A DNA stretch of 64,000 bases from Polyangiaceae bacterium (lineage in GTDB: Bacteria > Myxococcota_A > Polyangia > Polyangiales > Polyangiaceae): the NCBI GenBank assembly GCA_019637295.1, contig JAHBVX010000001.1:161501-225500 (forward strand). The letters are read 5' to 3'. How positions within the stretch are numbered: position 1 is the stretch's first letter; each line of letters opens with the position of its first letter. The position numbers and the translations under genes are program-made. The notes beneath the pieces are model-generated. The model made no database searches. It was not told the DNA's origin and saw only the letters and a program-made list of their open reading frames with translations. Below are positions 2,820 through 38,915 of this stretch, piece by piece.

Positions 2820-2833
2820 ATGATTTCCGTCAT
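2820..2833. promoter_or_regulatory. FNR-spaced palindrome upstream of the radical SAM operon
   Basis: The sequence reads ATGAT-TTCC-GTCAT, one mismatch from the exact ATGAC-N4-GTCAT seen at 31871 and 38902. Its centre is about 50 bp upstream of the radical SAM start codon, matching a class II activator position if transcription begins some 10 bp before the start codon. Binding by the Crp/Fnr protein at 38.1 kb is inferred. Confidence 0.5.
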
Positions 2834-2895
2834 GTCCAGCGGCGGACGTGTGCCCGAACGTGCCACACCCCTGGCGGCGGGGTCGCGGACGCCCC

Positions 2896-3897
2896 TCAGA
2901 GGTTCTCTCGGCAGCAGAGCACGCCGCCGGTGCTGCCTGTCCCGAAGCGAGTGACGTTGTTGGCTTCGCTCGAGCTCGAGCTGCCGCAGCTCCAGCCCGC
3001 TGGGCAATCCCCGAGGCCGTTGCCAATCGCTCGGTTGAGCGGGCTGCAGCCGTTCAGTCCGCCGCTGAACCCGTAGCCGGTGGTCCCGCAGCCCACCACG
3101 TTGTTCGTGCCCGTCGCGCTGCAGCTCGTGCCGTTGCTCGTGGACTGGCGGGTCGCCCAGAATCCAGTCGCCGTGGTGCAGCCCGCCGCGCGGGCGGTGA
3201 CGTCGGCGGAGCCGTTGCACACGCGCCAACCCTCCGCGCATAGATCCGCCACGCTGCAGCCGGTGCCGCTCGCGTTGCTGCTGTCGTCCCCGGCGTTGCG
3301 TCCACACTGCGGCGTCATCGACGCCGTCGTCTTGACGCCCGCTACCGAGAAGCCGCCGGCGCAGGCCGCGATGTTCGGGAAGCTCGTGAGGTTGGTGTAG
3401 CCCTCACGCTGTCCGTCGGAGCAACCCACCGCGGACACGGTGCCACCCGTGCCGCCCGTGCCGACGATGCCGCCGGTTCCGCCGGTGTTGCCGCCGCCGG
3501 TCCCGCCCGTCGCGCCAGCCATCCCGCCGCTGCCCCCCGACGGCGCGCCCGCCGAACCGCCGGTGTTCGCGCCACCGGTCCCGATGCCACCCGCACCGCC
3601 GGTTTCCGCACCGCCCGCTCCGGCGGCGCCGCCGCTGCCGCTCGCCGCCGCGCTGCCCGCGCTGCCGCCGGTGCTGCCCGCGCTGCCGCCGGTGCTGCCC
3701 GCGACTCCTCCGGCGCTCGCGTCTTGACCGCCGGCGCCGGCGCTGGTCCCTCCCGTCCCGCTGCCCGCAGCGGCTCCGCCCGAGCCGCCGCCTCCGCCGC
3801 TGCCGCCGGTGAGCCCAGAGTCATCCGAGCTGCCGCAGGCCAGCGCCAGGGTGAGCCCAACCAACGAGAACAGTGACGTGTGAGCGAGCCGAGCCAT
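2896..3897 (-). CDS. Lipoprotein with Gly-rich linker and C-terminal Cys-rich domain
   Basis: This is a 333-residue exported protein. Residues 1-21 form a signal peptide ending in LALAC, a tolerable lipobox. Residues about 22-150 are a Gly/Ala/Thr/Ser linker of GGTGG and GGSAG repeats. The last 180 residues form a Cys-rich globular domain starting VGCSDGQREGY, with more than ten Cys that probably pair as disulfides. The latter kind of domain recurs in large myxobacterial secretomes, and its role is unknown to me. The gene is transcribed toward the radical SAM operon, with a 119-bp gap that holds that operon's predicted operator. Likely anchored in the outer or inner membrane with the Cys-rich head displayed. 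Confidence 0.8.
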   Translation of the reverse strand: MARLAHTSLFSLVGLTLALACGSSDDSGLTGGSGGGGGSGGAAAGSGTGGTSAGAGGQDASAGGVAGSTGGSAGSTGGSAGSAAASGSGGAAGAGGAETGGAGGIGTGGANTGGSAGAPSGGSGGMAGATGGTGGGNTGGTGGIVGTGGTGGTVSAVGCSDGQREGYTNLTSFPNIAACAGGFSVAGVKTTASMTPQCGRNAGDDSSNASGTGCSVADLCAEGWRVCNGSADVTARAAGCTTATGFWATRQSTSNGTSCSATGTNNVVGCGTTGYGFSGGLNGCSPLNRAIGNGLGDCPAGWSCGSSSSSEANNVTRFGTGSTGGVLCCRENL

Positions 3898-3964
3898 GGC
3901 GGCAGTATAGCTCCATCACGGTCGCGGGGTCGGCCTCGGCGCGCTGTCGCGCTAGATTTCTCTC

Positions 3965-4474
3965 ATGAGCGATGGAGGCGCGCGGGTCCGGGGGCTGTAT
4001 CACGCCCTCGACGAGCAGGTCCGGCCGCTCTTGGCCCGCCACGCCGACCGCCTGGGCTGCCGGCGCGGCTGCGCGCACTGCTGCATCGACGGACTGACGG
4101 TGCTCCAGCTCGAAGCCGACCGTATCGTTGCGGCGCACGCTGAGTTGCTTCGGACCGAGGCGCCCGCGCCCGCGGGGCGCTGCGCGTTGCTGGACGCCGA
4201 GGGTGCATGTCGAGTCTACGAGGTTCGTCCGTACGTGTGCCGGACGCAGGGCTTGCCGCTGCGCTGGTTCGAGGAGGACGAGGCCAGCGGCGAGATCCAC
4301 GAGTATAGAGACATCTGTCCCATCAACCTCGAGGGACCCGCGCTCGCAACGCTCGGTGACGAGGAGCTCTGGACCCTGGGGCCCTTCGAGGAGCACCTGC
4401 TCGACGCGAACCTCGAGCTGTTTGGTCACGACCGGCGCGTCGCGCTGCGCGACCTGTTCGCCAAGCGCTGCTGA
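3965..4474 (+). CDS. YkgJ-family CxxCxxCC metal-cluster protein
   Basis: This is a 169-residue cytoplasmic protein starting at ATG. The N-terminal motif CRRGCAHCC (residues about 32-41) and later Cys residues (CALLDAEGACRVYEVRPYVCR, and an isolated DICP) match the UPF0153/YkgJ family, which is predicted to bind Zn or an Fe-S cluster through these conserved Cys. No enzymatic activity is established for most members. It ends 20 bp before the alpha-2-macroglobulin gene on the same strand, so the two may be co-transcribed. Nothing in the sequence shows a functional link. Confidence 0.85.
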   Translation: MSDGGARVRGLYHALDEQVRPLLARHADRLGCRRGCAHCCIDGLTVLQLEADRIVAAHAELLRTEAPAPAGRCALLDAEGACRVYEVRPYVCRTQGLPLRWFEEDEASGEIHEYRDICPINLEGPALATLGDEELWTLGPFEEHLLDANLELFGHDRRVALRDLFAKRC

Positions 4475-4494
4475 AGCGTGCATGATCGCGGCTC

Positions 4495-9363: not shown

Positions 9364-9378
9364 CTCTGCGGCCCTCGC

Positions 9379-11565
9379 TCAGAGTTCGTACCGAAGCCCT
9401 GCGAGCACGAGCCGCGGGGTTCCCGGCAGCAACCCACGCGTGCGGTCGGCGACGTACAGCGTGTCGGCCAGGTTCTTCACGCTCAGGAACGCCGTGGTCG
9501 AGACCTGCTGCCAGGTGTAACCAGCGGTGGCGTTGAAGATGGCGTGGCCGTCGATCAGTCCGCGCTGCCCGTCCGGTGACGGGGCGCTGGTGTTCAGATC
9601 ATCGGCGAACTGCTTGCCAACGTAGACGGCCTCGACGCGCGCATCGAAGCCCACCTCGTGCGCGTAGCCCAGGCCAACCGTCAGCAGGTGCTCGGGCGCA
9701 TAGGGCACGCGATTGCCCGTCACGCTGACCGTCTCGAAACCAGGGATGCTGCTGGTCCGGCGACCGACGAACTCGGCGTCGAACAGGAAGGTGTACGCGA
9801 TGGTCGCGTACGGGTTGTGCGCACCGAGCTTCGCGAGCCGGTCGCCCTCCGCCGAGACCGACAACTCCACGCCCTGGTGCAGCGTCCGACCGGCGTTCGT
9901 GAGCGTCGCGCCGCTGCCCCCTGCCACGCTCGCGGGAACGATCTGGTTCCTGAAGTCCATGCGGAAGGCCGTCGCCTCCAGCGACAACCCCCGGAGGGAC
10001 TCGCTGCGCACGCCGAGCTCGCTGTTCCAAGACAGCTCGGGGTCGAGATCGACCGTCGCGCCCGTGCCGTTGCTGATCACGTCTTCCGTCCGCGGGGGCG
10101 CGAAGCCGCGGTGGATGCCGGCGAACACCGTGGTGCGCCGGGTAGGCTCCCAGGTAGCGCCCATGCCAGGGATGAGCACGGTCAGCTCGGCCTCGCCTCG
10201 CACGTCCGTCAGGCGGTTGCTGCGCTGGTAGCGGATGTGCTCGACGCGCACGCCCGGCGTGTAGCTGAACGCGCCGACGAGGAATCGGTTCTGAAGAAAG
10301 CCCGCTAGGGCCTGGTTCTTCCGCAGGTTGTGCTCGACCAGCCCCGCGTTTTCGGAAGTCCCGACGCTGCGGGACCAGGGCAAGTCTCCGTTCAGCTGCA
10401 GTCGGTCCTGCCGCTCCACGTGCAGCCGCAGCCCCGCCTCGAGCTCACCCCGCACGGGGTGAAGCTCGTAGCTCGCCTTGACCCGTGGCTCGATCCCCAT
10501 CGTGCGGTACTGACGAAGACGCCCCTGGTTGCCACAGGTCGTGTTCAAGTTGTCCATGCCGCCGCACAGCGGATCGCTCGCGTCGTTGGGCCGCTGGTTC
10601 GAGTTGCTGGACTGCCGCCACCAGCGCCGGTCGAACAGCGAGCCGTACACGTTCGTGGTCAGCGTCACGGCGCGGCTCAACTCCAAATCGTGCGTGACCG
10701 ACGCGCCCTGTCTACTGGCGTACATCCAGTCGTTCTCGAACGGGTTCTGCCGCGGGTCTGCGTCCCACTCCGCTTGCGTCAGCCCCGAGTAGGTGTTCTG
10801 CGAGACCTCGTCGTAGTGACTGAAGCGCAGGGTCAGCCCCTGTCGCTCGCCGAGCAGCATGAATGTCTTGAGGCTCGCGTCGTGCAGCACGGAGTGGGTG
10901 TTCCTGCGGGAGCCCGAGCCTTGCTTGCGCTGCAGATCGAGGTGCAGACCCTTGTCACCCCAGGAGCCGCCGTAGCGCAGGTGCCCCGCGAGCTGCTCGC
11001 GGGTTCCCGCGGTCACGCTCACGAAGCCCCCCGGCGCGCTGCGAAATGTGGGCGTGACGTAGTTCACCACCCCGCCCACCGTGTGTGGCCCGAACAGGAT
11101 CTGTCCGGACCCCTTCAACACCTCGATACGCTCGTAGCGCTCGACGGGTGGGTGGTAGTAGCTGGCGTTGTCGCCGTAGGGCGCGTACGCGAGCGGGATC
11201 CCGTCCTCCAGCAAGAGCACCTTGGTGGACCGCGTCGGGTTCAGCCCCCGGAGCCCGATGTTCGGTCTGAGGCCGAAGCCCTCCTCGTCTCGGGCGTGGA
11301 CGCCCGGGACCTTGCGCAAGGCCTCGTTGACGGTGAACGGCCGACTTCGCTTCAGCGCGCGGTCGTCCACCACTTGCCCCGCGCCGGGCGTCGCCTCGAG
11401 CCCGGAGCGACTGTCGATCACGTCCACCTGCGGTGCGAAGACCACGTCCTCCTCGGCATCTGGCTCGCTGGGCGTCGCGGTCGGCTCCTCTGCGCGGGCG
11501 CTCAGTGTCCAGGTCGTCAGCGCGACGGTCGCGAGGTTCACTAGGTGTCGTCGGGTGAAGTTCAA
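9379..11565 (-). CDS. TonB-dependent outer-membrane receptor (probable ferric-siderophore/iron uptake)
   Basis: This 728-residue protein starts at TTG 11565, supported by GGAGG 6 nt upstream (the next candidate is GTG at 11541). Residues 1-25 are a signal peptide ending ARAEE. The plug domain at about 50-170 contains GLRPNIGLRGLNPTRS and LLLEDGIPLAYAPYGDN, typical of FecA-like receptors, and a beta-barrel fills the rest to a terminal aromatic-type strand (LVLAGLRYEL). It would bind an iron chelate and import it using TonB energy. It lies 67 bp downstream of tonB on the same strand, and both should be expressed from the Fur-box promoter ahead of tonB. The substrate cannot be read from the sequence. 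Confidence 0.9.
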   Translation of the reverse strand: MNFTRRHLVNLATVALTTWTLSARAEEPTATPSEPDAEEDVVFAPQVDVIDSRSGLEATPGAGQVVDDRALKRSRPFTVNEALRKVPGVHARDEEGFGLRPNIGLRGLNPTRSTKVLLLEDGIPLAYAPYGDNASYYHPPVERYERIEVLKGSGQILFGPHTVGGVVNYVTPTFRSAPGGFVSVTAGTREQLAGHLRYGGSWGDKGLHLDLQRKQGSGSRRNTHSVLHDASLKTFMLLGERQGLTLRFSHYDEVSQNTYSGLTQAEWDADPRQNPFENDWMYASRQGASVTHDLELSRAVTLTTNVYGSLFDRRWWRQSSNSNQRPNDASDPLCGGMDNLNTTCGNQGRLRQYRTMGIEPRVKASYELHPVRGELEAGLRLHVERQDRLQLNGDLPWSRSVGTSENAGLVEHNLRKNQALAGFLQNRFLVGAFSYTPGVRVEHIRYQRSNRLTDVRGEAELTVLIPGMGATWEPTRRTTVFAGIHRGFAPPRTEDVISNGTGATVDLDPELSWNSELGVRSESLRGLSLEATAFRMDFRNQIVPASVAGGSGATLTNAGRTLHQGVELSVSAEGDRLAKLGAHNPYATIAYTFLFDAEFVGRRTSSIPGFETVSVTGNRVPYAPEHLLTVGLGYAHEVGFDARVEAVYVGKQFADDLNTSAPSPDGQRGLIDGHAIFNATAGYTWQQVSTTAFLSVKNLADTLYVADRTRGLLPGTPRLVLAGLRYEL

Positions 11566-11632
11566 GACAGACCTCCGGCAGTGTCGCGCCCTGCAGGGGC
11601 TGACACGCGATGCGTCGCGCAGAGCGGCGCGC

Positions 11633-12412
11633 TCAGTTGGACAAGACGTAAGAGACGGGGATGACGGCGGTGATCGGCGACGTCGGGCTCGAGTCGCCGA
11701 GGCGAAGCGGCGAGGCGCGATCGATCAGCGCGAGTGCGTCGCTGTCGAGCACGGGGACGCCCGAGCTCTTGCGGATGCGGCGTCCGAGCAGGCGGCCATC
11801 CGGCGCCACGGTGACCTCCAGGTGCACCACGCCCTGCCAGCCGGCGCGCCGCGCGATCGCGGGGTAGCGCTTGAGCGAGTCGACCCGACGATGCAACAGC
11901 CCAGCGATACGCTGACGCTCCCCGCCGCTCGGGGAGCGCGGCGTGGCCTTGGGCACGACCGCCGCCGGCGCGTCTCGCGGGCTCGATGCCCGCGGCGACG
12001 CGGGCACGGTGGCGTCGGGCCGAGGGCCATCCGGCACGCGGTCGCTCGAGCCTCCCGCCTCGACGCCGTCCGCGACCAGCGCTGGCTCGGCCGCCGGGGT
12101 CTGGTGCAGCGCGGGAACGGCGGGCCGCGCTGGCTCCGCCGGAGTCTCGGGCATCGCGGGCACGACTGGCGTCGTCACGGGCCGCGAAACCGGGGTCGGC
12201 GCGGCGGCCGGGTTGGCTACCACTGGCTCGGGCGCCGGCTCGGCGAGCGGAGCGGGCTGCTCCCACAGCTCGACCCCGTACTCCACGAGCGCTGCCGGGG
12301 GCATCGCCCGCGCGCTGGCCGTGGCCGCCAAGATCAGGACTCCGGCATGCAGAAACACCGCAATTCCCAGGGGTAACGAGAGGTGCGCCGGGGCCTGGGG
12401 AGACTTGAACAT
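11633..12412 (-). CDS. tonB: Energy transducer TonB
   Basis: This is a 259-residue protein from the ATG at 12412. An upstream in-frame TTG at 12427 is unlikely, since it would place the start inside a palindromic operator. Residues about 8-30 form the membrane anchor, followed by a long Pro/Ala/Glu-rich periplasmic spacer. The C-terminal TonB domain (residues about 170-259) includes VDSLKRYPAIARRAGWQGVV and ends SYVLSN. It passes proton-motive force from ExbBD to outer-membrane receptors. exbB and exbD are not in this window. It is the first gene of a two-gene unit with the receptor downstream. A 7-1-7 Fur-type palindrome touches the start codon, and an FNR-like palindrome lies about 51 bp upstream. 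Confidence 0.88.
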   Translation of the reverse strand: MFKSPQAPAHLSLPLGIAVFLHAGVLILAATASARAMPPAALVEYGVELWEQPAPLAEPAPEPVVANPAAAPTPVSRPVTTPVVPAMPETPAEPARPAVPALHQTPAAEPALVADGVEAGGSSDRVPDGPRPDATVPASPRASSPRDAPAAVVPKATPRSPSGGERQRIAGLLHRRVDSLKRYPAIARRAGWQGVVHLEVTVAPDGRLLGRRIRKSSGVPVLDSDALALIDRASPLRLGDSSPTSPITAVIPVSYVLSN

Positions 12413-12426
12413 GAAAACCGTTTTCA
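12412..12426. promoter_or_regulatory. Fur-box-like 7-1-7 palindrome at the tonB start
   Basis: TGAAAAC-C-GTTTTCA is a perfect 7-1-7 inverted repeat, the geometry of a Fur box, and is AT-rich in an otherwise GC-rich region. It abuts the tonB ATG, so Fur-Fe binding would block transcription or initiation of tonB and the receptor. The family match is by geometry and gene context. Confidence 0.65.
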
Positions 12427-12456
12427 ATTACTACCTGAGCTCGGCCCGCGGCGCCA

Positions 12457-12470
12457 ATGACTTCGGTCAC
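12457..12470. promoter_or_regulatory. FNR-spaced palindrome upstream of tonB
   Basis: ATGAC-TTCG-GTCAC differs by one base from the exact motif at 38902. Its centre is about 51 bp upstream of the tonB ATG and about 82 bp upstream of the divergent Smr gene. It could serve either side. Confidence 0.35.
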
Positions 12471-12545
12471 CCGGACACCGGAGCCACGAGCCTCCGACGC
12501 GCCCCGCCCGCCAGCGGGTCGATTCGGGCGAGCTATGTTGACGGC

Positions 12546-13079: not shown

Positions 13080-13096
13080 CCATGGGGCGGTGTCAG

Positions 13097-25789: not shown

Positions 25790-25806
25790 CGGTGTGTCTC
25801 CCGGGG

Positions 25807-25962
25807 TCAGGGCAGCGTCGCCGCCTTCAGGTTTGCGAGCTCGAGCAGGCCCCAGAGCGTGTAGGAGATGGCCGGAATGAGCACGCCCAGAGCGAGCAAG
25901 AGCCAGGTGTTGTCGAGCATGCGCTCGAGCCAATGGACGGGGGGATCATTCGATTCAGACAT
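25807..25962 (-). CDS. Short single-helix membrane protein of the reductase operon
   Basis: This 51-residue protein starts at the ATG at 25962, overlapping the stop of the upstream subunit-I-like gene by 8 bp. The N-terminus (MSESNDPPVHWLERMLDN) is soluble, and one helix (TWLLLALGVLIPAISYTLW, about residues 19-37) precedes a short end. It sits 17 bp ahead of the CuA subunit. The size and place recall subunit IIa of ba3-type oxidases, and this may be the true equivalent, leaving the 57-residue protein at 23475 as an extra. Gene overlap and the helix pattern support it, although no homology can be proven by eye. Confidence 0.7.
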   Translation of the reverse strand: MSESNDPPVHWLERMLDNTWLLLALGVLIPAISYTLWGLLELANLKAATLP

Positions 25963-27358: not shown

Positions 27359-27412
27359 GGGCTATCTCTGGACTCGTAAGTCCATTGATAGCGCGTGCCG
27401 CGGACAGGCGTT

Positions 27413-27426
27413 ATGACGGGGGTCAG
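27413..27426. promoter_or_regulatory. FNR-spaced palindrome upstream of the NO-reductase-like operon
   Basis: ATGAC-GGGG-GTCAG differs by one base from the exact ATGAC-N4-GTCAT. Its centre is about 61 bp upstream of the first start codon, within the 93-bp gap after the preceding gene. That position suits an activator at -41.5 with a 20-bp leader. A TTGAT half site also lies closer in, at about 27394. Confidence 0.5.
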
Positions 27427-28227: not shown

Positions 28228-28620
28228 TCACTCGCAGCTGCTCAGGCAGCGATCGGCGACGCAGGCGGCGTAGTCCGACTGCAGCTTCAGGCCGTCCTGA
28301 GACGACGTCGCGGTCGTGCAGCTGGCGCTCGTGCCGTTGGGCGCGCACAGCTGGGGCGGCGTCCACCCCACGCCGTAGCAGGCATCCGTCTCGGGGTTGC
28401 ACTCCGCTGCGATGCACCCGGCGCAGCTGGGTTGCTGAAACAGGCAGCCCGCGCCGCTGCCCCCACCGCCCCCGCTGCCTCCGCCGCCGTCAGCGCCGCC
28501 CGAGTCCCCGCAGGCCGCCAGGGCCAGGGCGCCGATCAGCGCCAGCGCCAGCGAGCCTGCCCCAAGACTGCCCAAGTCGAGCTCGGCGCCTCTGCGCGTT
28601 CCCTCTGCGCCATCAATCAT
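28228..28620 (-). CDS. Small Cys-rich lipoprotein
   Basis: This is a 130-residue protein with a hydrophobic signal (residues about 20-36) and lipobox LALAACGD, followed by a short Gly linker. The last 75 residues hold ten Cys in patterns such as CAGCIAAEC, CYGVGW and CVADRCLSSCE, resembling the paired-Cys modules common in myxobacterial lipoproteins (CxxCxxxxC and a terminal CxxxC). Function unknown. It is co-directional and nearly contiguous with the next lipoprotein gene, so the two are likely one transcript. The promoter must lie in the 265-bp divergent region shared with the Rrf2 gene. Confidence 0.75.
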   Translation of the reverse strand: MIDGAEGTRRGAELDLGSLGAGSLALALIGALALAACGDSGGADGGGGSGGGGGSGAGCLFQQPSCAGCIAAECNPETDACYGVGWTPPQLCAPNGTSASCTTATSSQDGLKLQSDYAACVADRCLSSCE

Positions 28621-28885
28621 GGCGCACAGGCTCGCACGTTCGCGCCTCGCGCTTCAAGAGAGTGCTTGCGCGCTTCGGGGCCCGGCAGAGATTAGCTGCT
28701 GCGACCGCCGATCCTCTCGCTGCGCCGGGCGGCCTCGTCGCTGCGCTCCTCACCCTACTTCAGTAGGCCTCCGGTGCTCGCTCCTCGGGCGCCCGTCTCG
28801 CTTCGGTCTCGCCGGTCTCGCGACGCACAAATTTCTGCCGGGCCCCTTCGGATCGATGGTTCTATTGCCGAGTCCAGAGGCATCG

Positions 28886-29374
28886 ATGTCGCAACCTCGT
28901 TCCAAGAAGCTCCGGCGCGCCGCCCCGGCTCCGCCCTCCCGCGCTCGCGTCTCTCCGGTCAGCCAGACCGCGGAGTATGCGTTGCGGGCGATGTCCTGTC
29001 TGGCCGCTCAGCCGAGCGGCACCGCCCTCACCGCGCTAGCCCTGTCCGACGCGGCGTGCGTGCCCGCGCATTACCTCTCGAAGATCCTACGCAAGCTGGT
29101 CGAAGCCGGGCTGCTCTCGTCCCAGAAGGGCCACGGCGGCGGCTTCGTGCTCGCGCGCGCGCCCACTCGCGTGCGCCTGGCGGACATACTGGCCGCCGTG
29201 GACGAGCTGCCCACCGGCGGCCGTTGCGCCTTCGGCTGGGGTAACTGCGACGCGAGGCACCCGTGCCCGCTGCACGACGCCTGGTCCAGGCTCAACATCG
29301 CGTTCTGCGAGTGGGCCGAGGGCACGACGCTGGCCGAAGTCGCCGGCACCCGGCGCGCTCGAGGAACAGGCTGA
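28886..29374 (+). CDS. Rrf2-family transcriptional regulator with Fe-S ligand Cys
   Basis: This is a 162-residue protein. The N-terminal 25 residues are basic. A winged helix follows (TAEYALRAMSCLAA, and ACVPAHYLSKILRKLVEAGLLSSQKGHGGGFVLAR). Three Cys at 114, 121 and 127 (C-x6-C-x5-C) match the [2Fe-2S]/[4Fe-4S] ligand region of IscR, NsrR and RsrR. NsrR senses nitric oxide and represses NO-detoxifying genes. The NO-reductase-like operon begins 1.5 kb away, which makes an NO-sensing role attractive but unproven. The ATG at 28886 was chosen over a longer open frame that lacks a ribosome site. The 265-bp upstream region contains a CCTACT/AGTAGG hairpin. Confidence 0.82.
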   Translation: MSQPRSKKLRRAAPAPPSRARVSPVSQTAEYALRAMSCLAAQPSGTALTALALSDAACVPAHYLSKILRKLVEAGLLSSQKGHGGGFVLARAPTRVRLADILAAVDELPTGGRCAFGWGNCDARHPCPLHDAWSRLNIAFCEWAEGTTLAEVAGTRRARGTG

Positions 29375-29415
29375 CTTCTCCGCGCAGAGTCAACCGGAGG
29401 CAACGGCACCCGGGG

Positions 29416-29853: not shown

Positions 29854-29856
29854 GGC

Positions 29857-30370
29857 TCAGTGGTTCGTGTGACCCGAAGGGTCGGAGTGGAAGAAGTCAC
29901 CGGAGCCCCCGCGCGAATCCACTCCGGACAACAAGTCCGTGCTTGGCCCCTGGGCTGCGTCTCCCATGAGCAACAGGTTGAGCCGCAGCGTACGCGCAGT
30001 CTGCCCCCATCCGATACTCTTGAACCCGTCCAGGACCCGTGCCGCGCTTCCGGCAACCATCGGCGATGCGGCGGACGTCCCGCCGAACGCCACTCCCGCG
30101 GAGTTCGAGTTCGCGTAGTAGGACGTGCCCGACCAGACTATGTGGTTCGTCCCGTCGAAGTTCACGAGCATGGGTGCCATCAAGTCCAGCCCGGCGTCGT
30201 GTCCGGACGAGCCATTCGCCAAAGAGATGAAGATACCGGCCTTGCTGCTGTCTACGTGACGGTCCAGTGAAGGGTGTTCAGGCCGCCGACGGTGAGAACC
30301 TCCGACCGCATCTGAGGATGGGCGAGCATGCAACCGTTGCCTTGGAACCACCTGCCATGGTTGCCCTGCG
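29857..30370 (-). pseudogene. Truncated, frameshifted subtilisin-like (S8) protease remnant
   Basis: The C-terminal part of an S8 peptidase is readable: IFISLANGSSGHDAGLDLMAP, then FGGTSAASPMVAGSAARVL with the catalytic Ser, and an end at GHTNH. About 30250 the frame changes. Upstream, another frame continues the protease (GNGCMLAHPQ and EVLTVGGLNTL, the usual VLTVGA region). The catalytic Asp and His portions are missing, since the divergent tryptophanase gene starts at 30486. So at least a deletion and a frameshift have removed activity. The left over part still reads to a stop 3 bp before the next gene. Confidence 0.7.
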
Positions 30371-30485
30371 CCGCGGGCTCGCCTTTCCGCTCGACTCGTA
30401 CGCGCCACGCTGTTCCCGCGCCGGACCGACAAGGAAAGCGTCCGCGCCCTGGCGGTCGCGCGTCGCCTCTGCAACCCTCGGCGGC

Positions 30486-31874
30486 ATGAAGACCATCATC
30501 GAGCCCTTTCGAATCAAGGCGGTCGAGCCCATCGCCATGACCAGCGCTGAGCAGCGACGGGAGCTGATCGCGAGGGCCCACTACAACCTGTTCGGACTGC
30601 ACTCCGACGACGTGATCATCGACTTGCTCACGGACTCGGGGACATCCGCCATGAGCGCGGCGCAGTGGGGCGCGCTCATGCGTGGGGACGAATCCTACGC
30701 CGGGTCCCCATCGTTCTACCGCTTCGAAGCAGCGGTGAAAGAGCTGATGCCCTTTCGGCACGTGATCCCAACGCACCAGGGTCGCGCGGCGGAGGCCATT
30801 CTGTTCTCCGTGCTCGGCGGGTCGGGCAAGATCATTCCGTCCAACACGCACTTCGACACGACTCGCGGCAACATCGAGGTGACGGGAGCCGAGGCGCTCG
30901 ACCTGGTCATCGCCGAGGGTCGGGACCCACGCAGCCTGCACCCCTTCAAAGGCAACATGGACGTCGAGCGCCTCGAGCAGTTGCTCGTCGAGCGCGGAGA
31001 GCACGTGCCGGTCGTCATGCTCACGGTGACGAACAACGCGGGTGGTGGGCAGCCGGTCAGTCTCGACAACGTACGGCGCACGGCGGAGGTGGCGCGCCGG
31101 CACGGCAAGAAGCTGTTCATCGACGGCTGCCGCTTCGCCGAAAACGCCTATTTCATCAAGCTTCGCGAGCCCGGGCAGGCAGCGCGGAGCGTGCCGGACA
31201 TCGTGCGCGAGATGTTTGGCTACGCCGACGGCATGACCATGAGCGCCAAGAAGGACGCCTTCGCCAACATCGGCGGCTGGCTCGCGCTGAACGACGACGA
31301 GCTCGCGGCGGCGGCTCGCCGCCGGTTGATCCTGACCGAAGGCTTTCCGACCTACGGGGGGCTCGCGGGTCGCGATCTGGAGGCCATCGCCCAGGGGCTC
31401 TCGGAGATCGTGGACGAGAACTACCTGCGCTATCGAGCGGCGAGCAACGAGTACATCGGCGAGCGGCTGGTGGCGCTCGGCGTGCCCATCGTGCTGCCCG
31501 TGGGCGGACACGCGGTGTTCGTGGATGCGCGCGAGTTCTTGCCTCACATCCCGCCTCTCGAGTATCCGGGGCAGTCGCTCGCGGTCGCGCTGTACGAGTG
31601 CGGTGGCATTCGCGCGTGTGAGATCGGCACCGTGATGTTCGGGCGCCAGCCCGACGGCAGCGAGCGGCCCGCAGCGATGGACCTGGTGCGACTGGCGATG
31701 CCGCGACGCGTCTACACCCAGTCCCACGCCGACTACATCGTGGAGGTGTTCGCGGAGATCGCCGCCACGAGAGAGTCACTCTCGGGCTATCGCATCGCGT
31801 CGCAGCCCGACGTGCTGCGCCACTTCACTGCCGAGTTCGAGCCGCTGCGCCGCCGCGCCGCCGCGGGCGTATGA
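30486..31874 (+). CDS. tnaA: Tryptophanase
   Basis: This 462-residue PLP enzyme starts at the ATG at 30486. A longer open frame overlaps the protease remnant and was rejected. The PLP Lys is in MSAKKDAFANIGGW (K255-K256). The family motifs FIDGCRFAENAYFIK and EGFPTYGGLAGRDLEAIA are present. Between tryptophanase and tyrosine phenol-lyase the discriminating residue is Arg in the lyase (MERG) but Ile in tryptophanase. Here the sequence is CEIG, which favours tryptophanase, cleaving Trp to indole, pyruvate and ammonia. No TnaC-like leader or tnaB permease is seen, so it seems monocistronic. The palindrome at 31871 overlaps its stop codon but probably serves the next gene. Confidence 0.88.
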   Translation: MKTIIEPFRIKAVEPIAMTSAEQRRELIARAHYNLFGLHSDDVIIDLLTDSGTSAMSAAQWGALMRGDESYAGSPSFYRFEAAVKELMPFRHVIPTHQGRAAEAILFSVLGGSGKIIPSNTHFDTTRGNIEVTGAEALDLVIAEGRDPRSLHPFKGNMDVERLEQLLVERGEHVPVVMLTVTNNAGGGQPVSLDNVRRTAEVARRHGKKLFIDGCRFAENAYFIKLREPGQAARSVPDIVREMFGYADGMTMSAKKDAFANIGGWLALNDDELAAAARRRLILTEGFPTYGGLAGRDLEAIAQGLSEIVDENYLRYRAASNEYIGERLVALGVPIVLPVGGHAVFVDAREFLPHIPPLEYPGQSLAVALYECGGIRACEIGTVMFGRQPDGSERPAAMDLVRLAMPRRVYTQSHADYIVEVFAEIAATRESLSGYRIASQPDVLRHFTAEFEPLRRRAAAGV

Positions 31875-31884
31875 CGGACGTCAT
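31871..31884. promoter_or_regulatory. Exact FNR-spaced palindrome ATGAC-N4-GTCAT
   Basis: ATGAC-GGAC-GTCAT is a perfect copy. It overlaps the tryptophanase stop codon and is centred about 55 bp upstream of the start of the heme-motif lipoprotein gene at 31933, the same distance as at the other targets. Confidence 0.55.
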
Positions 31885-31932
31885 CGGTGCTGGCGCCGGG
31901 AGCGGTCATCCTCTGCTGGGGAGGACTCGTCC

Positions 31933-34900
31933 ATGCGTCACGCCACCATCGCCGCCCTCGTCTCCGCCGTGCTCCTGGGCTGCGCCCAGAAGGAGGTGAA
32001 GCCCGGCGGAACCTACTACGAGCGCAAGATCGGCCCCATTCTCCAGAGCGCCTGCGTCGGCAGTCAGACCGGGTCGAGCTGTCACGTCACCGCCGACGAG
32101 TTCGGCAACGCCCTGGGCAATCTGGACGTGACCAGCTACGCGATGCTCGCCAAGCGCCGGGACTTGCTGACCGACTACGGGCCCTACGGCATGCCCGCGC
32201 TCTTGATGAAGATCGTCCCGTCATATCCGATCCGCGTGACCCACTGGGACGGCAGCCACGACGACATCGTAACCGACGTGCCTCACGCCGGCGGCTCGTT
32301 GCTCGAGGAAGGCACGCCGGCGTTCGTCCTGCTCTCGCGCTGGATCGAGCGCGGTGCGCTGGCGAACAACGCGGTCGCCAAGCAGCCCAAGCTGGTGCTC
32401 GAGCCGTGCAAAGAACAAGTGGGCCATGACGCTGGCTTCGATCCCTCCGTCGATCCGCCAACGCCGGACTATGCGCAGTTCATGGACAAGGTGCACGGCT
32501 TCTTGGTCAAGAACTGCGCGGCCGGCAACTGCCACGGCGCGCTAGCTGGGGCCATGCCGCTGGCGTGCGGCACCACCGACGAGCAGAAGCGCTGGAACTA
32601 CTTCTCCGCTAGTGACTACGTGGCGAACGACGCGCCGGACAGCGAGCTGCTCCGTCGCGTGCTCGACCCCGCGTACGGTGGCGTGTACCACGAGGGCGGT
32701 CACTTCTTCGCCTCGCCCAGCGATCCCAACTACCAGGCGGTGCTCGCCTGGGCGGAGCAGAAGGGCGGACCCACGAACGTCCCGAGCGGCGCGGGTTTCG
32801 AGCTGTTCGCCAAGCGCGTGCAGCCCATGCTGGCCAAGCGCGGCTGCTTGCAGCTCGGCTGCCACTCGGCGCCGTCCTTCCCGGACTACAAGCCGCGGGG
32901 CGGAACCGGCGGGAGCTTCAGCCTCGCCACCACGCGCCACAACTACAAGGAGACGCTGAAGCAGGTCGCGCTCGAGTCGGCGGATCCGAACGCCAGCCGC
33001 TTGATCCGCAAGAACCTGCCGCCCACCGCTTCCGGTCGCGGGATGCTACACCGCGGCGGACCGCTGCTCGCGGCGGGGGGGGATCCCACCCAGTGCGATC
33101 CGACACTCGCCGAGTCGGGGCCCCTCGACGAGCAGGATCCGTACTGCGTCATCGTGCGTTGGATCGAGGTCGAGCGCGCCGCGAGGCAGGTCGCGCCCCT
33201 CAGTGGCATCGTCTTCGTACGCCGCGCGCCCGCGCCATTGCCCAATCGCCTGCAGGACTTCGAGCGCTACGCGCCTGGCTCGGACCTGCGCATCGTGTCC
33301 GCCAACCTCGACGCTCAGGGACAGCTGTCCACCCAGGGCGACGACACGAGCTTGCTCGCTGGCTGCGGGCTCGACCCCGCGACCGCGGATGTGCGCCGAG
33401 CCCAGGTCTCCTGGGACGGCGCGCGGATCGCGTTCGCCGCGCGCACCAGCGCCAGCACACCGCTGCGGGTCTACACCGTCAGCCCGGATGGCTCCGACTG
33501 CGAAATCGAGCCCACCATCGACGCGCCGCCGCGCGACACCCACGGGCAGCTGGTGCCCGACAACGGCGAGCTCGTGCACAATTTCGATCCGACCTTCGCG
33601 CCCGATGGCTCCATCGTGTTCGCGTCCACGCGCGGCAACGTGCAGAACACCGGTGCCTTCGACTACCAAGGGCCCCAGCGCTCGACCGCCGATCCCTCGA
33701 AGCTCAACGCGAACCTGTACGTCGCCGAGAGCGGCGCGATCCGCCAGCTGACGTTCCTGCTCGGGCAGGAGCTGCAGCCCACCTTCAAGGCCAACGGCCA
33801 GGTGCTGCTGACGACCGAGAAGCGCGTGCCCGGCTTCTATCAGCTCGCGGCGCGCCGCATCAACCTGGACGGCGGGGACTATCACCCGCTCATCGGCCAG
33901 CGAGGCTCCATCGGGTTCGACCAGGTCACGGACATCGTCCAGCTCCCGGATTTGAACTTCGTGGTGGTGCTCAGCAGTCATGGTGCCGTGCACGGCGCGG
34001 GCACGATCGGGGTCGTCAACCGCTCGCTCGGCCCCGACCACACCAGCGACGACCCTGGCGACTACCTGCAGCACCCGGACGCGCCAGCGGTGACCACGAC
34101 GCCCTTCTTCCAGCGCTCCCTGCGCGTGCTCGACCCCGCCGCTACGGGGCGCGCAGCTACCCAAGGCGCGTATCGCGATCCATCCCCGCTCCAGAACGGC
34201 AACCTGCTCGCGAGCTACGCGGCCAACGTCGTCGACCTGACGCAGTTCTCCGGCAACTTCGACGTCGTCGTGCTCGACGTGGCAACTGGCGCGCGAAGCC
34301 CACTGCCGGCGCTGTCCGATCCGAGTCAGGACGAGCTGTGGCCGGTGGCCGTACAAGGTCGCTACTCCCGCGGTGTGTTCGTGTCCACGCCCGCGGACCC
34401 GACCGGCAGCGCCGTGGTGTACGCGAGCGACGACTCCAAGCCGCGCACGGATCGCGCCGAGCTGACGTTCCTCGACTTCCCGCTGATCACGAGCCTGATG
34501 TTCCAGAACACCCGGAGCGGTCGGGACATCCCCGCCATGAGCTCCTTCGAGCTGTGGGAGAGCTTGCCGCCGGTCAGCGAGACGAGCCTCGACGACGCGA
34601 GCCCCTACATCGTCAGCGACAAGTGGGGGAAGGTCTACTCGCGGCGGCGTCTGGTTGGCACCGTCCCGCTGAACTCGGATGGCTCGACGCGGGTCCAGAT
34701 CCCGGGCGGGCTGCCGGTGATCATCGGGACCCAGGCGCGCTTCGCGAACGAGCCCAAGGCCAAGCTGCGCCACCAGCTCGAAGAGGTGCAGTACTACCCC
34801 GGCGAGTGGGTGACGTTGTCGTTCCGGCGCGAGCTGTTCGACGGCTTCTGTGGCGGGTGCCACGGCTCTCGCTCCGGCAAGGAGACCGACGTCTCGGTCA

Positions 34901-35007
34901 TCCCCGACGTGCTGACCCAAGCCTCGGCCGCGACGGCCAAGAAGCAGCAGCCGATCGACGTCGTGCACGCGCCGCGTGGTCCGGCCGTCGGCCCGCCCTA
35001 TCCCTGA
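31933..35007 (+). CDS. Large lipoprotein with cytochrome-like CH motifs around a beta-propeller (HzsA-like architecture)
   Basis: This is a 1024-residue exported protein with lipobox VLLGCAQ (Cys about 17). N-terminal third: heme-type CH motifs with unusual spacing, SACVGSQTGSSCH (about 40-50), NCAAGNCHG (about 195-203) and KRGCLQLGCHS (about 298-308). Centre: TolB/PD40-like propeller repeats (FAPDGSIVFASTRG, QLTFLLGQELQPTFKANGQ). C-terminus: a middle-domain-like segment (FPLITSLMFQNTRSG) and a standard CXXCH in FCGGCHGS (about 976-983). The order recalls the hydrazine-synthase alpha subunit and its many non-anammox relatives. I infer a periplasmic c-type cytochrome-like protein of unknown reaction. 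CX4CH motifs may not all bind heme. A perfect FNR-like palindrome precedes it. Confidence 0.7.
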   Translation: MRHATIAALVSAVLLGCAQKEVKPGGTYYERKIGPILQSACVGSQTGSSCHVTADEFGNALGNLDVTSYAMLAKRRDLLTDYGPYGMPALLMKIVPSYPIRVTHWDGSHDDIVTDVPHAGGSLLEEGTPAFVLLSRWIERGALANNAVAKQPKLVLEPCKEQVGHDAGFDPSVDPPTPDYAQFMDKVHGFLVKNCAAGNCHGALAGAMPLACGTTDEQKRWNYFSASDYVANDAPDSELLRRVLDPAYGGVYHEGGHFFASPSDPNYQAVLAWAEQKGGPTNVPSGAGFELFAKRVQPMLAKRGCLQLGCHSAPSFPDYKPRGGTGGSFSLATTRHNYKETLKQVALESADPNASRLIRKNLPPTASGRGMLHRGGPLLAAGGDPTQCDPTLAESGPLDEQDPYCVIVRWIEVERAARQVAPLSGIVFVRRAPAPLPNRLQDFERYAPGSDLRIVSANLDAQGQLSTQGDDTSLLAGCGLDPATADVRRAQVSWDGARIAFAARTSASTPLRVYTVSPDGSDCEIEPTIDAPPRDTHGQLVPDNGELVHNFDPTFAPDGSIVFASTRGNVQNTGAFDYQGPQRSTADPSKLNANLYVAESGAIRQLTFLLGQELQPTFKANGQVLLTTEKRVPGFYQLAARRINLDGGDYHPLIGQRGSIGFDQVTDIVQLPDLNFVVVLSSHGAVHGAGTIGVVNRSLGPDHTSDDPGDYLQHPDAPAVTTTPFFQRSLRVLDPAATGRAATQGAYRDPSPLQNGNLLASYAANVVDLTQFSGNFDVVVLDVATGARSPLPALSDPSQDELWPVAVQGRYSRGVFVSTPADPTGSAVVYASDDSKPRTDRAELTFLDFPLITSLMFQNTRSGRDIPAMSSFELWESLPPVSETSLDDASPYIVSDKWGKVYSRRRLVGTVPLNSDGSTRVQIPGGLPVIIGTQARFANEPKAKLRHQLEEVQYYPGEWVTLSFRRELFDGFCGGCHGSRSGKETDVSVIPDVLTQASAATAKKQQPIDVVHAPRGPAVGPPYP

Positions 35008-35026
35008 GCCTTACCGCGACGGCTCA
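35005..35026. terminator. Hairpin joining two convergent stop codons
   Basis: TGAGCC, a 10-nt loop and GGCTCA form a 6-bp stem whose ends are the stop codon of the gene at 31933 (plus) and that of the gene at 35024 (minus). It could end transcription in both directions, although no U-tract is present. Confidence 0.35.
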
Positions 35027-36187: not shown

Positions 36188-36291
36188 GCGCCGAGGTTAG
36201 CTGCGAATGCTCGCGGCGTCGAACGCGGCGCGCGATCCGCGCCGTCGTTGGGTGATCTCCCGCGCACCAGCCATGCGATCGGCTTGCGGGC

Positions 36292-36848
36292 TCAGGCGCG
36301 CGACGCGATCAACGAGAGCAACGAGCTCGTGGCGTCGATTCGGGACGTGCCGTGGTCGCCGCAGTGCAACTGCACCGTCGCCTCACCGAACTGAACCGAG
36401 AAGCCGTGTCGGTCGGCCTCGGCGCAGAGCCGCGTCCGCTCCGCGAGGTGCTGCACGCCCGCGACGTAGACGTCCATGCGGGTTTGGGGCGGGTGGAGTG
36501 TGCCGATGCGCGGGCGGTGATGGCGGTGGAGCCGAGCTGGCGCCCGAGAGGGAGCAGGGCGCGCGCGATCCGCTGCTTCTTCTGCCATCGCCACACCGCG
36601 ATGGCGCTCAGCAGCGCGGTCAAGGTCAGCAGGATGAGCCCCTGAACAACGCCGCCCGCGTCGCCCCGCGCGGGTCCGCGTGCCACCAGCGCGAGCCCGA
36701 CGAACAGAGACAGTGCCCAGCCGAGGGTGATGATGCCAGTGAAGAGCAGGCTGTAGTGGACGTGACTGGCGTCCGCGCGCGCTGCGATGGCACGCGACGC
36801 CTGAGCGGCGTTGGACGGACCGTGTGCATCGGCTGACCGAAGGATCAC
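36292..36848 (-). CDS. Two-helix membrane protein interrupted by a frameshift
   Basis: From GTG 36848, with AGAGG upstream, the protein reads residues 1-100 in one frame: helices at about 32-53 and 66-87, then WRWQKKQRIARALLPLGRQLGS. Near 36515-36520 that frame degenerates into Ser/Arg/Thr. The natural continuation (RMDVYVAGVQHLAERTRLCA, and FSVQFGEATVQLHCGDH, ending LIASRA) lies in a second frame that stops at 36292. Restoring 1 nt in ACCGCCCGCGCATC would give one protein of about 180 residues. Either a sequence error or a recent mutation. No domain recognised. Confidence 0.5.
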
Positions 36849-36889
36849 GTTGCCTCTCGAGGCTGGAGTTCAGAGCACGAGTTGCTCCG

Positions 36890-37275
36890 CCAACCCCTCG
36901 CCCTCCGCACTCGCGCGCCCATCGCCGACGCCCACTGTAGGACTGCCGTCCACTCGCGTCCACCTGTGTGGCGTCACACGCACCGTTGATCGGTAGTCCC
37001 TGGGGCGAGTTCGCGTGGTCGGTCGTTGGAGCCGAATCGGGCCGGTGGATCCCCAACTGCTTACGCATGGCGGGTGAGAGTTGACCCGAGAGCCGCTCGA
37101 CGTCGGCCAGACTGGTAGCGCCGGAGGCCATGCAGCACAGCACGCCGGACAGCAGCGTAGAAAGTGACCAGCGTCGCCCCCGTGGGTCGCGCGGGTCATC
37201 GAGTAGGTCGAGCCGAGCGTCTGGCAAGCGGGAGCTGAGCAGACCTGCCAGTCGTCGAGTTTGCCGTCTGTCCAT
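36890..37275 (-). pseudogene. Transposase N-terminal fragment (ISAs1/H-repeat-associated type)
   Basis: From the ATG at 37275 about 85 residues resemble the DDE_Tnp_1-associated N-terminal domain: LLDDPRDPRGRRWSLSTLL, then GVLCCMASGATSLADVERL and SPAMRKQLGIHRPDSAPTTD. The DDE catalytic domain is absent, and the downstream sequence does not continue the family and soon runs into the membrane-protein gene. No terminal inverted repeats or target duplication could be found by eye. It is a relic of an insertion sequence. Confidence 0.55.
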
Positions 37276-37389
37276 CGCGGGTCCTCCGTGGTCTTCGCGG
37301 CAGCGCCGCGTGTTGTTCGCTACAAACGCTCGATTCAGCAGACAAAGTCGAGCGGGACGGGAGATCCCGCCGCGCCCGACTCGCCGGAG

Positions 37390-37716
37390 CTAGCCTGAGC
37401 GCTCCACTAGGCGGACCAGGGAGCCAATGATGCGATCGAAGTTTTCCCGCATCTCGGAAGAGACGGGCGGTATGTAGCCGAAGGCCTCGGCCACCTCGAG
37501 GCAGGAGAGCATCTCGCGCGCGGAGCCGAGAGCGATGTGATACTTGGCGGCTCTGTTCTTGCCCCGAGAGTACTGACCCTCCCCCAGGTTGAGCGCGCAG
37601 CTAGCACTGCAGCGCCTCAGCTGACGAGATAGGTCGCGGTCCTTGTGGTCGAGGATGCCGAGGGTGCGACGTAGCCCCTCGATGGTGCGAAGCACGACGG
37701 GATAGATGCGGAGCAT
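37390..37716 (-). CDS. Four-helix bundle protein (23S rRNA intervening-sequence-protein family)
   Basis: This is a 108-residue all-helical protein from ATG 37716, with AAAGGAA about 8 nt upstream. The open frame extends further but contains no better start. The features of the family are LRRCSASCALNLGEGQYSRG and KYHIALGSAREMLSCLEVA. Members were first seen in intervening sequences of 23S rRNA genes, but many, as here, are encoded elsewhere. The structure is a pentameric helical bundle, and the function is unknown. It lies next to the IS remnant in an accessory-looking stretch between 36.3 and 38.1 kb. Confidence 0.85.
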   Translation of the reverse strand: MLRIYPVVLRTIEGLRRTLGILDHKDRDLSRQLRRCSASCALNLGEGQYSRGKNRAAKYHIALGSAREMLSCLEVAEAFGYIPPVSSEMRENFDRIIGSLVRLVERSG

Positions 37717-38109
37717 GGTGTGTTCCTTTCTGGCGAAAGCCTGCTGGTCACCGGCCCGGGAGTCGCAGCCCGAGTCGAGGGCGCCGAAGGCGCCGCGAAG
37801 CGGGCCGAGCTCGCGAAGCGAGCGAAGGACCCTCGACGCGGGCGAGCACCCGGGCAGACTCAAGGCAGCCGAGCCAGCTCACCCCTCTCCCCTCGCCCGC
37901 CATCCCCGACCCGGCCCCACTCCCCCTACCTCTGCCCCCTGCACTCGACCACGCCTTGCGAATTTGCGCGCACGACGGCCGAGCCCGCGTCGAACCCACA
38001 ACCGATCGAACCCTTTCAGGATTCTCAACCCCACCGGCGGGCGTCACCAATCAGTGGTGGTGTCACACGACCTACCGACTCGACGTTGCCGCGTCGGACC
38101 GGCAGGAGC
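37717..38109. other. 393-bp stretch without a convincing gene
   Basis: No open frame here has a start with a ribosome site or a recognisable product. The first 150 bp are Arg/Ala-coding-like GC repeats (gagctcgcgaagcgagc palindrome at about 37808). The middle is unusually C-rich on the plus strand. Near 38045 a CACCA/TGGTG inverted repeat lies downstream of the Crp/Fnr stop codon. It is bounded by the start region of the four-helix-bundle gene and the end of the regulator gene. Confidence 0.5.
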
Positions 38110-38811
38110 TCAGCTCGCCGCTGCGCGCCCTGCCAGACGCTCGAGCTCGCTCACGTCCTTGATCACGAAGCCTTCGGGTCGTGTCGAGACGACGCCGTGG
38201 CGTTCCCAGCGACTCATGGTGCGGATCGCGGTCTCGAGCGCCGTGCTCACGAGGTCGGCCAGCTCCCGGCGTGACAGCGCCACGGGGATGCGGCTCTCAC
38301 CCGTGTCGAAGTCGTCTCCGAGCTTGTCGTTGAGCTCGAGCAGCAACGTGGCGAGGCGTGCCTCGACGCTCCCGGCGCTGAGGACGTCGATCTTGCTGTG
38401 CAGCGTGCAGAGCTTGTCCGCCAAGCCCTTGGCCAAGGACAGCCCCATCTCGGGGTGTCGCTCGAAGCAGCGGCTCACGACCTCACCCGGCACCTCGATC
38501 ACGGTCGCGATGTCGGTCGCGGCGATCGCGTCGCCCGGGTAGGGAATGTTGCGGACGAACGCCACGTCGCCGACGCTCTCGGTGGGGCCGAACAGGCCAC
38601 AAATGGTCGAACGGCCCTTGGGCGCGGGGCGCACCACCTTCACCAGCCCCTGGGCGACCACCGCGAGGCCATGCGGCTGGTCGCCGGCACGCCAGAGCAT
38701 CTCGCCGCGGGTGTAGCGGCGGGTGGTGCTGGCGGCAGCGAGCTGAACCAGGGTGGGGGAGTCGAGGCCGGCGAGGACCTTGGTGCGCGCCAGGATGTGT
38801 TCGGGGAGCAT
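38110..38811 (-). CDS. Crp/Fnr-family transcriptional regulator
   Basis: This is a 233-residue protein from ATG 38811 (MLPEHILARTKVLAG). The cyclic-nucleotide-type beta-barrel fills residues about 10-125 (RYTRGEMLWRAGDQPHGLAV, and ESVGDVAFVRNIPYP), a dimer helix follows, and the winged helix is at 165-215. Its recognition helix STALETAIRTMSRW keeps the Glu and Arg that contact the TGA part of FNR/CRP half sites. It has no N-terminal Cys cluster like FNR, with only isolated Cys (ICGLF, RCFER, KLCTL), so oxygen sensing by Fe-S is unlikely. A heme or small-ligand NO/redox sensor of the Dnr/NnrR sort is possible. A perfect palindrome at 38902 suggests autoregulation. Confidence 0.88.
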   Translation of the reverse strand: MLPEHILARTKVLAGLDSPTLVQLAAASTTRRYTRGEMLWRAGDQPHGLAVVAQGLVKVVRPAPKGRSTICGLFGPTESVGDVAFVRNIPYPGDAIAATDIATVIEVPGEVVSRCFERHPEMGLSLAKGLADKLCTLHSKIDVLSAGSVEARLATLLLELNDKLGDDFDTGESRIPVALSRRELADLVSTALETAIRTMSRWERHGVVSTRPEGFVIKDVSELERLAGRAAAS

Positions 38812-38901
38812 GTGACGGAACTCAAGCAAGGGTCGTTCCTGCCCGTTGCAATGACGGAAGTCCGCGGGCGCGTAGACGAAAGTCACGAGGGACGGGACGC
38901 A

Positions 38902-38915
38902 ATGACCCCCGTCAT
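38902..38915. promoter_or_regulatory. Exact FNR-spaced palindrome in the Crp/Fnr promoter region
   Basis: ATGAC-CCCC-GTCAT is a perfect 5-4-5 palindrome with the spacing of FNR-type sites. It lies about 97 bp upstream of the regulator start and 135 bp upstream of the divergent outer-membrane protein gene, so it could control both. Confidence 0.6.

Follow-up and report, generated by a model that had tools for sequence, protein, structure and literature searches.

An ATGAC-N4-GTCAT palindrome probably connects a Crp/Fnr-family regulator with nitrogen-oxide genes in a Polyangiaceae bacterium

Introduction

Which regulator reads the palindrome ATGAC-N4-GTCAT, copies of which stand before a putative nitric oxide (NO) reductase operon, a gene for a lipoprotein with heme-type motifs and the gene for a Crp/Fnr-family protein within 64 kb of the genome of a Polyangiaceae bacterium? 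The stretch in question, hereafter the window, covers positions 161501-225500 of contig C1 (JAHBVX010000001.1, assembly GCA_019637295.1) in a 7.65 Mb genome of 25 contigs, which is labelled G000 in our comparisons. An earlier note on this DNA had listed five copies of the palindrome, taken it for an FNR-type site and proposed that it ties a radical SAM peptide gene, the reductase operon, the lipoprotein, tonB and the Crp/Fnr gene together. How denitrification and nitrosative stress are controlled has, to our knowledge, been worked out chiefly in Proteobacteria. Here, we argue on sequence grounds that the palindrome is probably bound by the Crp/Fnr protein whose gene lies at 38110-38811, and by related proteins elsewhere, and that these proteins would activate nitrogen-oxide genes.

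Results

The five listed copies proved accurate in position and mismatch count, two of them being exact, and the predicted starts of the radical SAM, NO-reductase, lipoprotein and outer-membrane protein (OMP) genes lie 50-61 bp from the palindrome centre, or 43-54 bp from its edge. The window carries 2 exact and 6 one-mismatch copies. In the whole genome, exact copies number 6, and 139 are found once up to one mismatch is tolerated; the reversed control pattern reaches 2 and 44, respectively. The 8 window copies with no more than one mismatch compare with about 1.1 predicted by the density elsewhere in the genome (Poisson p 2e-5); exact copies number 2 in the window versus 4 in the other 7.59 Mb (p 6e-4), and copies with at most two mismatches number 29 versus 12.9 +/- 3.8 in shuffles, none of 100 shuffles reaching 29. 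When upstream regions were scored with a matrix trained only on loci of other organisms, 5 of 39 window genes scored at least 15, whereas among 591 crudely called genes from 800 kb of that contig 3 did so (Fisher p 3e-5); the window count becomes 4 of 38 if the shared site at 38902 is counted once (p 3.5e-4). Genes were called from GC content by codon position, so coding and intergenic labels and the background promoter set are approximate. Some of the window copies are coding coincidences. The idea that all eight copies with at most one mismatch are sites was rejected, since of the three one-mismatch copies beyond the earlier list that at 11661 falls inside the tonB reading frame, that at 23182 inside a gene and that at 15871 in a HypB/CobW-type GTPase gene (15175-15936), whose His-rich stretch mimics the motif.

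The link to the regulator family comes from a census of DNA around its relatives. Perfect 5-N4-5 palindromes were counted for all 1,024 half-sites in 1.16 Mb around the best 80 of 126 relatives, with expectations taken from half-site frequencies; the set was drawn with one recognition-helix pattern, and the result speaks for that helix type. In counts that are not fully independent (there are near-duplicate loci, L076/L078, and genomes of one genus, G014/G055), ATGAC ranked first of all half-sites, with 29 palindromes versus 0.61 expected, and ATGAT ranked second, with 8 versus 0.53. In the same 80 loci, TTGAC gave 0 versus 0.45, TTGAT 2 versus 0.65 (rank 83), TTGCG 2 versus 1.21 and GTAAC 0 versus 0.07. 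ATGAC also came first in each of three lineage groups, narrowly in the myxobacterial one (5 versus 0.21) and with 9 versus 0.07 in the armatimonad and 15 versus 0.28 in the remaining loci. Exact sites are present in 20 of the 80 loci, and 17 of the 29 fall within the 9% of the DNA called intergenic by the crude gene caller. Upstream of the regulator gene itself, the exact ATGAC palindrome is the commonest one, found in 9 of 79 loci of other organisms; in a separate set it precedes the regulator in 3 of 30 loci, the present one included.

The sites also keep a fixed distance to a promoter element. We counted the letters of TAnnnT at 35 offsets in 26 site-gene pairs from 16 loci, using exact sites, dropping duplicate downstream sequences and counting a palindrome that faces two genes twice. 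The best fit, 36 of 78 letters, came at exactly 22 nt beyond the site (p 2.5e-9, uncorrected for the 35 offsets; the next-best offset gave p 5e-3), and there both the A and the final T were present in 12 of the 26 pairs. Adding 7 nt to these 22 nt, and taking the first base of the -10 box as -12, the palindrome centre comes to lie at -41.5, which is the class II activator position of CRP and FNR, so that by spacing these appear to be class II promoters. In the window, the -10 element TATCAAT (27384-27390, minus strand) stands 22 nt after the site of the NO-reductase operon and is identical in the same-genus genome G001, and the -10-like CATCCT (31907-31912, plus strand) stands 22 nt after the lipoprotein site; nosZ has TACTCG at 22 nt and tonB has TAGTAAT at 23 nt.

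The regulator (38110-38811, minus strand) is a 233 aa protein in which the Pfam models cNMP_binding and HTH_Crp_2 both score above cut-off, placing it in the Crp/Fnr superfamily; its predicted model is best matched by GlxR/CRP. Of 97 genomes, 38 have a match at E<=1e-20, its own among them, and the named relatives come from Sorangium sp., from metagenome-assembled genomes of Polyangiaceae and other Myxococcales, and then from Acidobacteria, Armatimonadetes, Eisenbacteria, Rokubacteria, Aquificales and others. The Glu and Arg of the recognition helix are retained (...LETAIRTMSRW), as had been claimed. A conserved N-terminal Cys cluster was not found in 16 aligned regulator sequences: read from 38811, the first Cys of the window protein is C71, and L008, L014 and L021 each have a single, non-aligned N-terminal Cys. 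The reading frame is open further upstream of 38811 and that upstream part contains Cys, but the start at 38811 is backed by relatives, as it corresponds to the only start, 4-5 codons before the match, in L009, L010, L012, L013 and L023. An Arg in the phosphate-binding cassette is the mark of cAMP-binding CRP. By inspection of an alignment that holds no CRP sequence, most regulator rows have an Arg-less stretch, YPGDAI or YPADAI. An open reading frame (ORF) matching DDE_Tnp_1-associated lies near the regulator, at 36292-37275.

The exact site ATGACCCCCGTCAT (38902-38915) lies between the regulator gene, crp, and a divergent gene for an outer-membrane beta-barrel protein (38966-40066, plus strand; Pfam OMP_b-brl). 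It had been described as the Crp/Fnr promoter, and it is indeed an exact site upstream of crp, but it is common to both genes, with 50 bp to the OMP start (38966) and 90 bp to the likely crp start (38811). A weaker pattern match with 2 mismatches, 39 bp before crp at 38851-38864, is a possible autoregulatory operator.

Among the candidate targets, the NO-reductase operon is preceded by the one-mismatch site CTGACCCCCGTCAT (27413-27426, minus strand). All of its genes lie on the minus strand, starting with a COX1-like gene of 467 aa (25955-27358; Pfam COX1, E 1.8e-9), and continuing with a COX2-like cupredoxin subunit (25262-25933; Pfam) that has, by inspection, a CuA-type CxxxCxxxHxxM motif and whose true start is uncertain, an eNOR-type NO reductase subunit I of 531 aa (23662-25257) and, by family matches, an SCO1/SenC copper assembly factor (22509-23465) and a cytochrome b/4Fe-4S/FlpD-like electron-transfer protein (20346-22505). 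The first COX1-like protein is degraded, keeping the helix VI and X His but apparently, by inspection, not the HH copper ligand pair. The second, subunit I, was classed by family match and by alignment to oxidase chains, which puts a Gln at the position of the active-site Tyr of ba3 oxidases; H-x-S-Q-Q is conserved in 8 of 8 eNOR sequences. A Gln in subunit I and a cupredoxin subunit encoded immediately upstream are described as marks of eNOR (PMC8756737, including Table A4, seen in extract), and the window operon has both. It thus resembles eNOR, a B-family NO reductase, in these two features, and its best solved-chain matches include ba3-type oxidases, but it differs in being led by a second, degraded COX1-like subunit, and the class is set by the described marks rather than by characterised eNOR sequences.

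An eNOR gene is present in 8 of the 97 genomes, the present one included, and each of these 8 also encodes the regulator (hypergeometric p 3e-4). The genes for regulator, eNOR and lipoprotein share a stretch of about 16 kb in both G014 and G055. A palindrome precedes the operon in 8 of 8 genomes, its own included, with scores of 17.5 (own), 18.4, 12.0, 11.6, 16.7, 13.9, 7.2 (G033) and 7.6 (G031), hence at least 11.6 in 6 of them, although the gene starts are uncertain in some relatives.

The exact site ATGACGGACGTCAT (31871-31884, plus strand) stands 48 bp before the lipoprotein gene (31933-35007, plus strand), and scores of at least 10 are also found upstream of the lipoprotein gene in G001, G014, G055 and G031. 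The lipoprotein has matches in 40 of the 97 genomes and a second copy on contig C20 of its own. Among the matches scored (30 of 54; L131, with 9 bp of upstream DNA, was left out), a score of at least 10 was reached in 4 of 13 relatives with the regulator versus 0 of 15 without it (p 0.035). The 1024 aa protein has four heme-type motifs, C41-x8-C50-H, C195-x4-C200-H, C305-x4-C310-H and C973-x2-C976-H, that are invariant in 22 sequences. No Pfam family matched it at the normal threshold, HZS_alpha staying below cut-off (14.3 versus 26.6 bits), and a sequence search of solved structures returned one chance match only. Its predicted structure (mean pLDDT 76.6), however, has Kuenenia hydrazine synthase alpha as best solved match (Foldseek E 1.2e-23; Z 32.5 over 476 residues, the top value among 979 aligned chains), above TolB propellers (Z 27), which cover the propeller part only. 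Judging from this model, the lipoprotein appears to share the overall fold of hydrazine synthase alpha: residues 342-1024 align with chain residues 43-739 of 5c2v_A, at 18% identity, whereas an extra N-terminal region with C-x8-CH and C-x4-CH sets it apart. Hydrazine synthase alpha has a Tyr ligand four residues after the heme-motif His, at the catalytic heme alpha-I site. In the window lipoprotein, a Ser, not Tyr, stands four residues after the His of the last, CXXCH, motif, and we do not claim that the protein makes hydrazine. Distant homologs that lack the key residues have been reported in Planctomycetota and Desulfobacterota (PMC12758564, in extract), and a word search of the main text of that paper, as extracted, gave no 'Myxococc'. 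A tryptophanase-like gene (30267-31874) lies directly before the lipoprotein gene. In the G031 region, a 457 aa gene is faced by a one-mismatch site and its TACGTC box (12078-12107 of locus L049), and a beta-eliminating lyase of 457 aa was identified in that same region.

A key member of the putative regulon, nosZ, lies outside the window, at 435.7 kb of contig C1, where an exact site (10686-10699 of locus L189) stands 75 bp before the ATG at 10775, which is preceded by AAGGAGGAG. The nosZ genes of G065 and G095 have high-scoring sites (20.6 and 14.8) further off, roughly 130-150 bp upstream, and no site was seen at nosZ of G077 and G067, both of which lack the regulator; a partial nosZ match in G003 (L263) was left out of this comparison. 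The genome also has candidates for a copper-type NirK and a cytochrome cd1-type nitrite reductase, at C1:255864-256745 and C19:437917-439035.

The remaining two genes on the earlier list fared less well. The one-mismatch site ATGACGGAAATCAT (2820-2833, minus strand) stands 43 bp before a radical SAM/SPASM peptide maturase (1475-2776, minus strand; TIGR04103/TIGR03913-like, below the cut-offs of these models), but a strong site (15.8) was found in only 1 of 19 relatives, G055, so that membership of this peptide gene is doubtful; 20 matches with loci were scored, the window's own included, and the upstream region of G001 was shifted by 24 nt. Directly downstream of it, two related ORFs with Cys motifs and Gly/Ser repeats (CGECSRHVR...ACPFCGG type, 213-1474) are possible substrates of the maturase. 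The tonB gene (11633-12427, minus strand; Pfam TonB_C) does have a one-mismatch site, GTGACCGAAGTCAT (12457-12470, minus strand), but its matrix score is only 9.0, making it a weak candidate, and the other 58 of the 59 genomes searched gave no tonB ortholog at E<=1e-15. Directly before tonB, beside this weak palindrome, GAAAACGGTTTTC at 12412-12440 has a resemblance that we take to be Fur-like.

Further targets appear in more distant genomes. The gene hcp (Prismane) occurs in 7 of the 97 genomes and was not matched in the present one; in G017, which has the regulator, it is preceded by ATGATGCCCGTCAT (score 21.9), an exact site precedes a Prismane gene in L041, and the score stays at or below 4.1 at four hcp loci that lack the regulator. 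Besides Hcp, the genes faced by distant sites encode, among others, a cytochrome c552, HiPIP and cytochrome c, a multicopper-cytochrome c protein of NirK-like architecture, molybdopterin oxidoreductases in three armatimonad loci, MFS transporters, MoaA, MobA, an alginate-export-type porin, several hemerythrin/ScdA/DUF2249 proteins and NnrS-like proteins (one just over and one below the Pfam cut-off). Elsewhere the gene that a site faces is one for a glycosyl hydrolase, an AraC-type regulator, a BTAD regulator or a protein without a family.

Discussion

Four things can be read from the DNA itself: the palindrome, its association with the regulator family, its spacing to the promoter element and the families to which the target genes belong. 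The unbiased census, the phylogenetic footprints, the -10 spacing and the functions of the targets together support the regulon well. The claim that the palindrome ties a nearby encoded regulator to genes of nitrogen-oxide respiration thus stands for eNOR, the lipoprotein and nosZ, and is weak for the radical SAM gene and tonB. From this we infer physical binding, activation and a signal. In the mechanism we propose, a regulator family of Myxococcota, Acidobacteriota, Armatimonadota and others would bind ATGAY half-sites, the dimer sitting on a palindrome centred at -41.5, beside a -10 box of the form TAnnnT; the bound regulator would activate genes of nitrogen-oxide reduction and nitrosative-stress repair. 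The signal would be NO or another nitrogen oxide, perhaps sensed through heme as reported for HcpR. In the present genome, the regulon may comprise the eNOR operon, nosZ, the hydrazine-synthase-alpha-like lipoprotein and the intergenic region between crp and the OMP gene, and possibly the radical SAM gene.

Several observations weigh against this model. Exact sites are missing from 60 of the 80 regulator loci. None of 11 Aquificae loci has one, although two of these carry ATGAT-N4-GTCAT followed at 22 nt by TACAAT; the gene behind it encodes a redoxin in the one scanned. In the own-genome control, 800 kb of contig C1 taken from beyond the window, ATGAC palindromes number 2 versus 0.32 and rank 29, and 25 loci without the regulator (132 kb) gave 0 with 0.05 expected, which is too few to be informative. 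Genome-wide, 3 of the 6 exact copies are not clearly promoters, and high-scoring places outside the window adjoin genes for B12-binding and cation-efflux proteins, with no evident nitrogen-oxide role. The eNOR scores of G033 and G031 are weak, 6% of background promoters reaching 7, and only G000 and G001 show a clear eNOR -10 box at 22 nt. The OMP gene lacks a -10 element at the expected spacing and the fits of the radical SAM and crp genes are poor. No site was seen upstream of the regulator itself in G001, G014, G055, G033 and G089, nor at nosZ of G001, and among the four relatives with both regulator and hcp only one has a strong hcp site, G023 scoring 8.7 and G010 and G043 having nothing (the G043 match is partial). 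The palindrome was also not found before the genome's own nirK or nirS; the regulator would therefore act downstream of nitrite reduction and not as a master switch.

Other explanations of the sites were considered. They could belong to a different regulator encoded nearby, such as the Rrf2/NsrR-like protein at 28619-29374 (plus strand; conserved core from 28961), which keeps C-x6-C-x5-C and whose gene adjoins the eNOR operon in G001 and G055. We consider this improbable, as the enrichment was found around Crp/Fnr relatives across several phyla and the site is built like those of Crp/Fnr proteins, as 5-N4-5, whereas the NsrR motif is gATGyAT-N5-ATrCATc (PMC1274295, in extract); moreover, one spelling of the Rrf2 core pattern matched in only 3 of 10 loci examined, the window included. 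It is possible that the Rrf2-family protein is a second, NsrR-like switch. Chance matches in a GC-rich genome would account for the coding coincidences at 15871 and 23182, but are very unlikely to account for the enrichment in the window and upstream of its genes, or for the conservation of sites in relatives.

Equally unlikely is that the palindrome is an ordinary FNR, HcpR or DNR-type site (TTGAY), with attention caught by two of its copies. The geometry is the same and the targets are similar to those of HcpR and DNR (PMC1274295, in extract), but the half-site census in the 80 loci led us to reject it: the zero counts of TTGAC and GTAAC say little by themselves, since few were expected, and it is the excess of ATGAC that decides. 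The FNR-type label of the earlier note accordingly has to be given up, TTGAY not being enriched where ATGAY is, and the regulator having no conserved N-terminal Cys cluster.

If the Crp/Fnr regulator does read these sites, the result offers a sequence-level handle (regulator, site, promoter geometry and target list) on nitrogen-oxide control in Myxococcota, Acidobacteriota and Armatimonadota, and with eNOR and nosZ as targets it bears on the balance between production and consumption of N2O. FNR uses a Val-Glu...Arg recognition helix to read TTGAT. A bolder proposition, to which we give slightly less than even credence, is that a widespread, undescribed Crp/Fnr nitrogen-oxide family reads ATGAY despite Val-Glu...Arg in 53 of the 80 sequences, and that the lipoprotein belongs to its regulon. 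The first part would make the published correlation between helix position 180 and site base 3 incomplete, and the second would suggest that myxobacteria carry out NO or hydroxylamine chemistry that has gone unrecognised. Site bases 3 and 6 are reported to correlate with helix positions 180 and 181 (PMC1274295, in extract); with Glu at 181 and a residue other than Arg at 180 (Val in those 53), the window family fits A6 and a base 3 other than G, but that base is A, not T. Among 5.39 million open papers, a string search for the palindrome or its core, in six spellings, matched only PMC1274295 (TTGACnnnnGTCAA, with the TTGAC word; seen in extract) and PMC4974557, ATGAT spellings and subscription papers being outside its scope, and no open paper was found that describes an ATGAC-palindrome regulon.

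Comparison with known regulators places the window protein among relatives without making it identical to any. FNR has Glu and Arg in its recognition helix, acts from -41.5 and carries an N-terminal Cys cluster for a 4Fe-4S center; the window family shares the Glu and Arg and the -41.5 position, but differs in the Cys cluster and in its word, ATGAY instead of TTGAT. HcpR is alike in family, in the N4 spacing of two of its published motifs, in having Hcp as a predicted target in some loci and in the link to nitrosative stress. It differs in its words, TTGAC, GTAAC and TGTGA, next to which stand TTGAT for DNR and TTGCG for NnrR (PMC1274295, in extract); TTGAC and GTAAC were not enriched in the 80 loci, in a count that did not include the TGTGA-N6 form, and the present genome has no Prismane match. 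With DNR and NnrR, whose targets include NO-reductase, nosZ and NnrS-type genes (PMC1274295, in extract), the family has denitrification genes (the eNOR operon and nosZ) and NnrS-type genes in common as predicted targets, whereas the TTGAT and TTGCG half-sites are not enriched here and nirK and nirS stand without a site. The regulator is thus likely a variant of the Crp/Fnr nitrogen-oxide regulators, with a DNA word that differs from the published words of the NO switches.

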